Assembly: GCA_021806645.1 (NCBI GenBank) | Contig: JAJZQX010000005.1 | Coordinates: forward strand, 1 to 64,000 | Direction: 5' to 3' | From: Myxococcales bacterium | GTDB taxonomy: Bacteria > Myxococcota > Myxococcia > Myxococcales > Anaeromyxobacteraceae | Length of the DNA: 64,000 nt | Shown here: piece by piece, positions 14,761 through 19,510 of the stretch | How positions within the stretch are numbered: the stretch's first letter is position 1 | How the letters are laid out: each line of letters opens with the position of its first letter | The notes under the pieces: generated by a model | Seen by the model: only the letters and a program-made list of their open reading frames with translations | The model's database searches: none | What the model was told of the DNA's origin: nothing | Translations under genes and position numbers: made by a program

Positions 14761-15615
14761 ATGCTCGCCCGGCGTGCCGCGGTCCTCGCCTCGCTCCTCG
14801 CCTCGCTGGCCCTCCCCGCCCAGCCCCACGCCGCGGACCCGCAACCCGCGCTGGCGCCGGCCGGGGTTCCGGCGGCCGCGCCGGTTCCGGTGACGCCCAC
14901 GGCGCCGGAGCTCACCGTCGACCTCGGCACCGCCGCGGCCATCAGCGGCGCCGAGCTGGGCCTGAGCGGCCTGACGGTGGCCTTCAAGGCCCAGCTGGTG
15001 GCCCCCACCTGCCGCTGGTGCGAGCCGCCCCGCCTCGACCGTTGGGCCCGCCGGAGACTGGTCTGGCACGACCCCGGGGCCGCCGGAACCGCCTCCGACC
15101 TCTTCCAGTTCGTGGTCCCGGCCGGCGCCATGGCCACGCTCTGGATCCAGGCGACTCCGCACGGTGACCGCGAGGTGGCCGAGGATCTACTGGTCCTCGC
15201 CGAGTCGGCCAGCACCGCCATCCTGCTCACGCAGGTGGCGAAGCTCTCGGTGGGTCGGCTGCGCCAGGATGCCTGGGCGCGCGGGACCATCGAGTCGCCG
15301 GACGACAAGCTCTCCTTCTGGTCCGGCCACACTTCCTTCGCCTTCGGCGCCGCCGCCGCGGCGACGCAGATCGCGCGCCTGCGGGGCCGGCCGGGCTGGA
15401 GGTGGCTCGGGCTGGCGACCTTCAGCGCGGCGGCGATCACCGGCTACCTGCGGGTGGCGGCCAACCGCCACTGGCTGACCGATGTCGTCTCCGGCGCGGC
15501 GGTGGGCGGCGCCACCGGGCTGCTGGTGCCGCTGCTCGCCTACCGCCCGGCCGGCGGCCGCAAGCCGGCGGTCTTGCTGGTCCCCGCGCCTGGCGGGTTC
15601 GCGGTGGTATTCTAG
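14761..15615 (+). CDS. PAP2 superfamily phosphatase
   Basis: A 284-aa membrane-associated acid phosphatase of the PAP2 type, which removes phosphate from phosphatidate, undecaprenyl pyrophosphate or related lipids at the periplasmic face. An N-terminal signal peptide (ending near AHA, residue 23) is followed by a proline/alanine-rich linker. The three PAP2 motifs are present in reduced form: KLSVGRLRQDA (about 161), FWSGHTSFAFG (about 186) and RVAANRHWLTDVVSG (about 230). The substrate cannot be told from sequence. It is followed after 13 bp by an FHA-domain gene. Confidence 0.85.
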   Translation: MLARRAAVLASLLASLALPAQPHAADPQPALAPAGVPAAAPVPVTPTAPELTVDLGTAAAISGAELGLSGLTVAFKAQLVAPTCRWCEPPRLDRWARRRLVWHDPGAAGTASDLFQFVVPAGAMATLWIQATPHGDREVAEDLLVLAESASTAILLTQVAKLSVGRLRQDAWARGTIESPDDKLSFWSGHTSFAFGAAAAATQIARLRGRPGWRWLGLATFSAAAITGYLRVAANRHWLTDVVSGAAVGGATGLLVPLLAYRPAGGRKPAVLLVPAPGGFAVVF

Positions 15616-16738: not shown

Positions 16739-18448
16739 ATGAGCAGACCACGCGCCGTCACGGCGACCGGGGCGACCGTCGCCATCCTGCTGGGGCTCGT
16801 CGCCATCCCCGGCTCGACGAAGGCCTACACCGTCTCGTCGCTGTTCACGCCTGGGTGTCACGAGCAGATCGCGGGCGAGGCGCTCCGGAGCGTGCGCCTC
16901 ACCCTGGCCACGGCCGCGCCGCTGCCCCGGACGTCCGACGAACAGGCGCTCATCAACGACCTGCAGTTCACGCCCGACCCGGACATGATCGACCTGGGCG
17001 GCGCGACGCTCCTGATCGGCACGCGCGACAACGACCTGAAGGGCCGGTCGTCGGACAACCTCGCCTACCTGGGGGCGGTCCACGGGGATCCCAACAACCA
17101 GGACGAGCACTGCCTGCGCAGCGCCGGGCAGGACGAACCGGGTGGTACCGAGGCCGCGGTCGCCAGTTGCCGGGCCTTCATTCGCGGACGGGTGGCCGAG
17201 GCGCTCGACGGACTGGGCGCGGGCGGCGCCCCGGACCTGGCCAGGCGCACCTCGCTGCCCCTCTACCTGTCGCTCCGGGGCCAGGTCGACGCCCTGCTCC
17301 CCACCTACTACGTCCGCATCGGCCAGGCGATCCACGCCCTGGACGACACCTTCTCGCACACCTATCGAACCCTCGACGGCATGAAGATCACCGTGGCCAT
17401 GAACTGGATCGACGCGGCCGACCGGACCCTGGTGGAGTCGCGAGACGGACCAGGCCACGCATCCGAGCTGGATGCCTGCGACGATCGCGACCTGTTGAGG
17501 GCGAAGAAGCGCCAGCTGGCGACCGAGGCCACCGCCGCACTCCTCCGTGCAACGCTCGATCCCGTGACGACCAAGGACCAAAAAATGGCTGCGACCGAAG
17601 CGATCCTCGACACCTACGTCAGCTACTCGCCTGGTTGCACCTTCGACAACAACTGGTGCGACGCACCCGAACGGCAATACAAGGACGCCCCCACCAGGTG
17701 GCCCGGCTGTTCATCCACCGGCGGCATGGGCCTCGTGGGCGGTCTCTGGGCCCTGCTGGCCCTCGCCATGCTGCCGCGCCGCCGCAAGGCGACCGTCCCG
17801 ATCGTGGCCGCGCTGCTGGTGGTGGGCGCGCTCTCCTTCCCGGTGGGCGACGCCCGCGCCGACACGCAAGACCCCGCTCCGGCCGCTGCCCCCGCCAAGC
17901 CCGCTCCGGGCGAGCCGCACGCGCCGCCGCTCCCGGTCACGGTGCCGGTGAAACAGCCGGGGCCGACCGATCCCGCCAAGGGGGCCTGGGGCGCCGAGCT
18001 GGGCTTCTTCGGCTCGGTCAACAAGCCGGCGGTCGCCGTCCACCTCGGCGTGCGCCGCCGGCTCAGTACGCACTGGACCGTGGGCGTGGACGGGGAGTGG
18101 AACAGCTGGATCTCGCTCTATGGCCCCTCCCAGGTCCGGGCCGGCGTCGCCAACGCCTACGGCACCGCCATCCTCCGCTTCCCCCTGGCCTACGAGAACT
18201 TCAACCTGCGGACGACCGCGAACCTCGGCATCTCCTACCTGCTCCTAGACCTCTATGGAGCGCCCAAGGGGAGTCTCGGCCTGTACGGCGCCCTCTACCC
18301 GCTGGGGCTGGAGTGGAAGGTCTCTCGCGAGTTCCTGCTCATCATCAACCCGATCGGCATCGCCGTCCCGGTTCCCCAGCTCCGCGGTATTCCGCTCGCC
18401 TACTGGCAGTATCGTTTCGGCTTCAGCATCGGGATCATGAAGGGCTGA
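16739..18448 (+). CDS. fusion protein: phospholipase C-like domain, internal MYXO-CTERM-like segment, outer-membrane barrel
   Basis: One uninterrupted 569-aa frame joins two exported modules. Residues 1-30 are a signal peptide. Residues 35-320 contain FTPGCHEQIAGEAL and GQAIHALDDTFSHTYR, a His/Asp pattern like zinc-dependent phospholipase C-type proteins (inferred). Residues 322-350 (PGCSSTGG, a hydrophobic stretch, then LPRRRK) look like a MYXO-CTERM sorting signal, normally found only at a C-terminus. It is followed at once by a second signal-like segment (VPIVAALLVVGALSFPVGD, then ARA), a Pro/Ala linker, and residues 400-569 with alternating strands typical of a small barrel. An in-frame ATG at 17769 could start the barrel part on its own, but has no visible ribosome-binding site. 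Confidence 0.8.
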   Translation: MSRPRAVTATGATVAILLGLVAIPGSTKAYTVSSLFTPGCHEQIAGEALRSVRLTLATAAPLPRTSDEQALINDLQFTPDPDMIDLGGATLLIGTRDNDLKGRSSDNLAYLGAVHGDPNNQDEHCLRSAGQDEPGGTEAAVASCRAFIRGRVAEALDGLGAGGAPDLARRTSLPLYLSLRGQVDALLPTYYVRIGQAIHALDDTFSHTYRTLDGMKITVAMNWIDAADRTLVESRDGPGHASELDACDDRDLLRAKKRQLATEATAALLRATLDPVTTKDQKMAATEAILDTYVSYSPGCTFDNNWCDAPERQYKDAPTRWPGCSSTGGMGLVGGLWALLALAMLPRRRKATVPIVAALLVVGALSFPVGDARADTQDPAPAAAPAKPAPGEPHAPPLPVTVPVKQPGPTDPAKGAWGAELGFFGSVNKPAVAVHLGVRRRLSTHWTVGVDGEWNSWISLYGPSQVRAGVANAYGTAILRFPLAYENFNLRTTANLGISYLLLDLYGAPKGSLGLYGALYPLGLEWKVSREFLLIINPIGIAVPVPQLRGIPLAYWQYRFGFSIGIMKG

Positions 18449-18532: not shown

Positions 18533-19510
18533 ATGCGCACCTACACCGCCGCATGCTCCGCGCTCGTCCTGGCCTGGGTTGGATGTGCCGGCGTCGCCCG
18601 AGCCGATACGGCCGGCACCGCTGCTGGCGAGACTCCCCCGGCCAAGGGCCGGCCGGCACGTACCACCCCGCCGCCCGTCGCGACGCCCATCGCTACGCCC
18701 TCGCCCGAGGCTTCGCCCCAGAAGGTCGAGGAGGCCAAGTCCACCGCCAAGGCCGCCGAACTCACCCCCATCGTCCCGAGCCCGCGGAATCCCCTGCACC
18801 CGGCCTTCCAGCTCTACTCCGAGATCGACCTGCCCATCCTGGGGATCGGCACGGTCTTCGCGGCCGCGCGGCTGGTCCGGAATCAGAAGGCCTACTGTGC
18901 CCCACTCTGCGACCGAGTCGAGCTCAACCGGCTCGATCGCACCACGGCCGGGTACTGGAACCCAGGCTGGCAAGGCGCCTCGAGCTACCTGCTCGTCGGC
19001 ATCGGCGCCGGCGCCTTGACCATGCTCGTCGTGGAAGAGGGGTTCTTGCCGGGCCTCAACGACGCCGCCGTGGTGGCCGAGTCGGCGCTGGCCGGAATCG
19101 CCGTCGTCTCCATGATGACGCTGGCGGCCGGCCGGCCGCGCCCCTTCCTCTACGGGGAGAAGGCGCCGCTGTCCGATCGCAACGGCGCCGATGCCGGCCT
19201 GTCCTTCCTGAGCAACCACACCGTCGCCGCCTTCGCGATCGCCACCTCCACGTTCGTGGCCATGAGCCGGCTGCGCCCCGGCTCGAAGGCCGCCTGGATC
19301 GTGCTCGGTGTCGGCGGCGCGATGGCGACCGCCGTCGCCATCGCGCGGGTGATGGGCGGCATGCACTTCGTCACCGACACGCTGGGTGGCGCGATCGTCG
19401 GCTCGTCGGTGGGGATGCTCATCCCCTCCCTGCATGGCTCGCCGGTGGCCATCGTGCCGGTCGCGGCCTCGGGTGGCCAGCGCGGCCTCGCGCTCAGCCT
19501 CCGGTTCTGA
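18533..19510 (+). CDS. PAP2 superfamily phosphatase with SNH variant motif
   Basis: A 325-aa exported or membrane phosphatase. After a signal peptide (cleavage near ARA, residue 24) come a Pro/Thr-rich linker and several hydrophobic segments. PAP2 motifs: AAGRPRPF (about 198-205), FLSNHTVAAFA (about 225, with Asn where SGH normally has Gly) and ARVMGGMHFVTDTLGG (about 271-286). AGGAG precedes the ATG. This is the second PAP2 gene within 4 kb; the two proteins are not close copies. It converges on the lipoprotein gene at 19590. Confidence 0.83.
   Translation: MRTYTAACSALVLAWVGCAGVARADTAGTAAGETPPAKGRPARTTPPPVATPIATPSPEASPQKVEEAKSTAKAAELTPIVPSPRNPLHPAFQLYSEIDLPILGIGTVFAAARLVRNQKAYCAPLCDRVELNRLDRTTAGYWNPGWQGASSYLLVGIGAGALTMLVVEEGFLPGLNDAAVVAESALAGIAVVSMMTLAAGRPRPFLYGEKAPLSDRNGADAGLSFLSNHTVAAFAIATSTFVAMSRLRPGSKAAWIVLGVGGAMATAVAIARVMGGMHFVTDTLGGAIVGSSVGMLIPSLHGSPVAIVPVAASGGQRGLALSLRF

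Follow-up and report, generated by a model that had tools for sequence, protein, structure and literature searches.

Bacterial proteins are commonly assumed to carry a single export signal, located at an end. In the DNA analysed here (the window, 64,000 nucleotides of a Myxococcales contig), one reading frame places a C-terminal sorting tag immediately before an N-terminal signal peptide (Table 1), raising the question of whether the gene gives rise to one exported protein or to two. The assembly of the host genome comprises 33 contigs, totals 4.14 Mb and is 99% complete.

An internal sorting tag and a second signal peptide

At the window tag (residues 321-350, WPGCSSTGGMGLVGGLWALLALAMLPRRRK), as in homologues, a hydrophobic helix is followed by an Arg-rich cluster. 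The tag has one Cys, instead of GCGC. In a protein scan, TIGR03901 (MYXO-CTERM) matched residues 323-349 with 17.0-17.8 bits (curated cut-off 20), and in a six-frame genome search the internal tag scored 22.4 bits, above the cut-off. The string PGCSSTGG is found identically at the end of an ordinary, terminal MYXO-CTERM protein of another genome (L096). In the window protein 220 aa lie downstream of the tag; in the split homologues described below (G085, G086 and G189) the tag is at the C-terminus. The second segment, ATVPIVAALLVVGALSFPVGDARA↓D (residues 351-374; the arrow marks predicted cleavage here and below), follows in frame straight after the MYXO-CTERM. The sequence-only reading had noted a MYXO-CTERM-like sorting signal in mid-protein. 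This is confirmed: the elements (a Cys motif, then a helix, the Arg cluster, a second hydrophobic segment and A-x-[AG]) came in the same order at 28 of 28 junctions checked. Judged from these sequences, the combination of tag and second signal at the seam is more than chance.

Table 1. Features of the fused gene and its downstream neighbour (positions in the window).
Feature	Coordinates	Strand	Evidence
Fused ORF, 569 aa, no internal stop	16739..18448	+	ORF call; 30 fused homologues in tree
Order of parts: signal peptide, Zn-PLC-like enzyme, MYXO-CTERM, second signal peptide, 8-strand barrel	16739..18448	+	
N-terminal signal peptide, residues 1-29, KA↓Y	16739..16825	+	Sequence; aromatic +1 residue in homologues
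Predicted mature enzyme domain, zinc phospholipase C / S1-P1 nuclease fold, ~290 aa	16826..17704	+	AF2, VIA, invariant residues
Internal MYXO-CTERM-like signal, residues 323-350: GCSS (Cys324), hydrophobic helix, RRRK	17705..17788	+	TIGR03901, homologues
Second, internal signal peptide, residues 351-374, end DARA↓D	17789..17860	+	A-x-[AG] in 28/28 junctions
Low-complexity Ala/Pro linker	17861..17944	+	Sequence; length variable among homologues
Predicted 8-strand outer-membrane β-barrel domain, residues 403-569	17945..18445	+	AF2 pLDDT 91.3; eight strands
Exported PAP2-family phosphatase, probable cassette partner	18533..19510	+	PF01569 60.4 bits; homologues adjoin fused gene

The window protein begins with a signal peptide, as judged from its sequence, and the myxosortase MrtX is encoded in the same genome (NF040593, 193.5 bits, cut-off 180), as is the type II secretion protein GspD (508.7 bits, cut-off 351). 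MrtX has been shown to cut MYXO-CTERM both in M. xanthus and in E. coli (PMC11980579). It was found in 15 of the 16 genomes that carry the gene, the exception being G133, in whose assembly (87% complete) no MrtX was found. Since MrtX is also present in 135 of the 145 genomes of the order, its occurrence is permissive and not discriminating.

Predicted folds of the two halves

Neither half of the window protein could be assigned directly to a family in Pfam or NCBIfam, and searching PDB sequences with the enzyme profile returned no match. Alignments were built from 34 sequences of each half; PF00882 matched 7 of the 34 enzyme homologues weakly (best E 0.0055) and did not match the window protein. 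The enzyme half was modelled by AlphaFold2 with a pLDDT of 93.3. In VIA-align, the top 23 rows for this model were all zinc phospholipases C or S1-P1 nucleases (Z 11.4-7.4), the best with Z 11.4, rmsd 3.4 and 161 aligned residues, and the next unrelated row followed at Z 4.8. Foldseek by itself returned only weak PLC matches (E 0.3), which VIA-align then settled. Residues H41, D99, H124, H199, D203, H207, H240 and D245 show no variation among the enzymes aligned at these positions (up to 34), and the predicted mature N-terminal residue (Y30 here) is aromatic (Y, F or W) in 33 of 33 homologues. In zinc PLCs, an N-terminal Trp and a comparable set of His and Asp residues bind metals; note that the metal-ligand-like set of the window enzyme (Y30 and the eight invariant residues) was assigned by chain order, not by coordinates.

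The window enzyme thus resembles Bacillus cereus PC-PLC, clostridial PLC and the S1-P1 nucleases in fold (Z 7.4-11.4), in the His/Asp metal-ligand-like set and in the aromatic mature N-terminus. In contrast, identity to these proteins is only 11-18%, the window member has no Pfam match, and an Asp takes the place of E146 of PC-PLC. The phospholipase-like module described from the sequence is right at the level of the modelled fold and the metal-ligand residues, with phospholipase activity as a putative function.

The AlphaFold2 model of the barrel half (pLDDT 91.3, eight strands) aligned with OmpA, OprF and NspA at Z of about 16, and the models identify it as a predicted OmpA-type 8-strand outer-membrane barrel. 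Its export signal is the internal segment ending ARA↓D in the fused protein and a free N-terminal signal peptide in the split and reversed genes. Separate searches of the 145 genomes of the order with the enzyme profile (A3) and the barrel profile (A4) identified the identical 16 genomes. Pairwise distances of the two halves correlated with r 0.94, a value reached by 0 of 2000 permutations, none of which exceeded 0.33. Both the model and this strict co-occurrence speak for the suggestion that the enzyme comes with an outer-membrane barrel of its own, whose role as a partner is proposed by analogy.

Relatives, natural splits and the seam between the halves

In-frame fused homologues, 30 in number, were found down to about 30-35% identity. 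Besides those in the 16 genomes, fused genes came from named environmental MAG loci and a search of the phylum. Note that the carriers are mostly MAGs, several of them closely related. A tree was built from 40 proteins, comprising the 30 fused, 3 split and 7 with reversed order (barrel gene ahead of enzyme gene). The reversed arrangement forms one side of a fully supported branch; the root was placed there by choice and is not itself a result. Both split lineages are nested within the fused clade. Given the chosen root, the sequences indicate that the fusion is ancestral in its deep clade and that the splits are secondary, the fusion having been broken at least twice.

Split versions in relatives, the check proposed with the sequence-only reading, were thus found in G085, G086 and G189. 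In G085 and G086 the enzyme ends with the MYXO-CTERM and a stop, and the barrel lies in another frame with an ATGA overlap, beginning MKRPLLLWFGLVAA(A/T)LPSAAPA. In G189 the enzyme ends with the MYXO-CTERM and a TAG stop, and the ATG of the barrel, which has its own signal peptide, follows about 29 nt on. In both lineages the break is at the seam: the enzyme keeps its MYXO-CTERM, now terminal, and the barrel starts with a complete signal peptide. The halves are also encoded by two genes in reversed order, where the N-terminal signal peptide of the barrel is likewise free. That splits at the seam yield two complete, export-competent proteins is the strongest evidence for two working products.

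Since relatives keep both signals and some are split exactly at the seam, it is highly probable that two exported proteins are cut from the chain. The best-supported reading, which we consider likely, is an export polyprotein in which one chain gives rise to a surface enzyme and a barrel. The N-terminal signal peptide would direct the zinc-phospholipase-C-like domain through Sec, with signal peptidase I cutting at KA↓Y30. The MYXO-CTERM helix would then act as a stop-transfer segment, leaving the RRRK loop cytoplasmic, and the second hydrophobic segment would restart translocation, placing the barrel domain in the periplasm as well. The loop between the hydrophobic segments has a net charge of +2 to +9 (median +5) and is positive at all 31 junctions, which meets the positive-inside rule. 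Signal peptidase I would cut at ARA↓D375 and MrtX at the presumably lipidated Cys324. By analogy, the enzyme may reach the cell surface via type II secretion, and the barrel, inserted by BAM, may serve as its outer-membrane partner. A single mRNA would in this way supply two exported proteins in equal amounts.

The main alternative is that the barrel is made separately from an in-frame internal start, the ATG at 17768 (MLPRRRK...), the full-length protein being minor or degraded. Such an ATG is well placed in the window gene and in G039, and the split form with the ATGA overlap indicates that coupled translation is possible in the family. However, in 9 of 27 fused genes the stretch from the Arg cluster to the second hydrophobic segment lacks any in-frame ATG, GTG or TTG, and a Shine-Dalgarno-like match at the seam was present in 3 of 27 only. 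The poor conservation of internal start codons favours proteolysis over re-initiation. Moreover, without a stop codon the enzyme half would always still be joined to the barrel, and 8 of the 10 long-tailed cases found elsewhere (see below) have no Met ahead of the second signal. We consider this explanation unlikely, and an internal start was rejected as the main route because the start codons are not conserved.

Alternatively, the protein may remain uncut, forming a helical hairpin in the inner membrane that holds the enzyme in the periplasm and, via the linker, the barrel in the outer membrane. While both hydrophobic segments are long enough for membrane residence, the signal peptidase motif A-x-[AG] after the second segment is kept at 28 of 28 junctions, the linker varies widely in length among homologues, and the halves are separate proteins in the split lineages, making an uncut hairpin improbable. 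A further possibility is decay of the signals, leaving a vestigial CTERM and, as the only product, a secreted barrel whose N-terminal domain is inactive. The protein-scan score of TIGR03901, which lies below cut-off, would fit such decay. In contrast, the metal-ligand-like residues do not vary among up to 34 enzymes, the Cys motif (GC[SAGNQ], or a near variant retaining Cys) is found in every fused homologue, the Arg cluster is conserved and the split enzymes retain the tag, so that we regard decay as very unlikely.

Finally, the host is the sole carrier among 24 genomes of its family (0 of the 23 others), as might be expected if a sequencing or assembly error concealed a stop or if neighbouring genes had recently fused by chance, but the same in-frame fusion in 30 homologues rules out the former and the tree, with its chosen root, the latter, leaving this explanation a negligible probability. 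Between the two outcomes put forward from the sequence alone, two exported products or a recent fusion, it is the two-product outcome that is best supported, by the splits and the conservation of the seam, and the recent fusion that falls, the tree placing the fusion as ancestral.

Should both proteases act as proposed, the gene would be a cellular bacterial counterpart of a processed polyprotein, with surface enzyme and outer-membrane partner in a fixed 1:1 ratio. The fused proteins would be natural substrates, with matched split homologues as controls, for defining the requirements of myxosortase. They would bear on whether a C-terminal tag must be C-terminal and on why MYXO-CTERM proteins pair with outer-membrane barrels.

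Known systems, recurrence and gene neighbourhood

The idea of processing at an internal tag is not new, having been published for MXAN_5598 of Myxococcus xanthus, in which an adhesin is followed by one internal MYXO-CTERM and then by a barrel and an OmpA domain (PMC11980579). Guo, Haft and Wall described this protein as atypical, likened it to TraA-TraB and proposed that it is processed at the internal tag (PMC11980579, 2025). Like the window gene, MXAN_5598 has an outer-membrane β-barrel after an internal MYXO-CTERM in the same protein. It differs in that its N-terminal half is a large adhesin rather than a Zn-PLC-like enzyme and its C-terminal half has an extra OmpA cell-wall domain. Furthermore, MXAN_5598 was reported as a single case, whereas the window family is deeply conserved, with natural splits and a second signal peptide at every junction. 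In TraA-TraB, the gene of a MYXO-CTERM surface protein lies directly ahead of that of its outer-membrane barrel partner, similar to the window halves, and the two ORFs overlap (PMC11980579), resembling the split forms of G085 and G086. Unlike the fused halves of the window gene, TraA and TraB are separate proteins with unrelated domains and a role in kin recognition and outer-membrane exchange. A tripartite sorting signal away from the C-terminus, as in the window tag, was reportedly described by Abdul Halim et al. in 2017 for an archaeosortase substrate; that signal belongs to the archaeal ArtA system. As far as the literature found goes, what is new is the deep conservation of the enzyme-barrel family, an explicit second signal peptide at each of its junctions, the natural splits and the recurrence of such junctions in unrelated families.

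The recurrence was seen among strong MYXO-CTERM sites (E<=1e-4; n=111, from 60 genomes). The tail beyond the Arg cluster had a median length of 3 aa, being shorter than 30 aa at 98 sites, 32-49 aa at 3 and at least 286 aa at 10, so that long in-frame tails make up roughly a tenth of the strong sites sampled. By eye, all 10 long tails open with a second export signal (7 of lipobox type, 3 of signal-peptidase-I type). A strict signal-peptide detector recognized 8 of the 10, compared with 0 of 143 control windows from the same tails and 2 of 444 windows from enzyme and barrel domains; the two missed, L106 (ALSC) and L115 (GPAC), have atypical lipoboxes. What these sites join is unrelated to the window gene: a MopE-motif protein is paired with a TIG lipoprotein, PD40 proteins are joined to amidase and CarboxypepD_reg proteins, and an Ig-domain protein is also among them. 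Because several of the ten resemble members of a single orthologous family, there are fewer than 10 independent origins. In a separate sample from genomes G050 and G086, internal sites were 0 of 15, indicating that their frequency varies by lineage.

On balance, we lean towards the view that an export polyprotein junction exists across Myxococcota in several unrelated families, at which myxosortase and signal peptidase I or II would make the cuts and release equal amounts of both products. That the junction is in general a MYXO-CTERM tag directly before a type I or type II signal peptide, to be read in the same way, seems to us slightly favoured. The back-to-back arrangement itself is kept over deep time and in several unrelated protein families.

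Reversed-order paralogues of the enzyme in L102 (G138:C113) and L103 (G143:C326) have a MYXO-CTERM that runs in frame into a lipobox (SLSLTAC↓G and ALLLVAC↓G) and then a domain of ~175 aa, which in L102 had no Pfam match. By their sequences, these represent an independent fusion of tag and signal peptide on the same enzyme.

The strongest MYXO-CTERM of the host genome (C23:31450, 34.3 bits) is likewise an internal one, with a lipobox after it and mrtX at a distance of about 3.4 kb. The gene (L017, or L101 2821-8793 on the minus strand, at about 29.3-35.3 kb of contig C23) has mrtX nearby on the other strand. It carries MopE motifs upstream of the tag, and its junction, RRRRRPAHRGAALLGLLLLATVASGC↓KK, leads in frame into a lipobox signal and a TIG-domain protein of ~700 aa. 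Similar genes are present in G002, G022, G009 and G014. The lipoprotein halves in L101 (2824-4992, minus strand) and L106 (1-1500, minus strand) share TIG domains and a Cys-rich stretch that is MXAN_6577-like (NF041328, score below cut-off). In G022 and G041, mrtX also lies within about 3 kb of genes combining tag and signal. In G041 (L138, C12:38600-43800), about 3 kb from mrtX, these form a tandem pair, each with an internal MYXO-CTERM, a signal peptide and PD40; one signal peptide is of lipobox type and the other of type I, and one N-terminal half is an N-acetylmuramoyl-L-alanine amidase.

In the window, the fused gene is flanked by two genes for exported PAP2-family phosphatases, at 14761-15615 and 18533-19510. 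A scan of viral contigs gave no matches. Homologues of the downstream phosphatase, about 59-72% identical, adjoin fused genes in environmental MAG loci (L032, L034-L038 and L040), and the gene was absent from 59 other relatives at E<=1e-30. Its presence beside fused genes in distant MAGs and its absence from close relatives suggest joint horizontal transfer, and the fused gene and this PAP2 gene probably arrived together. It is our guess that the enzyme of the fused gene and the PAP2 phosphatase act on one lipid pathway.
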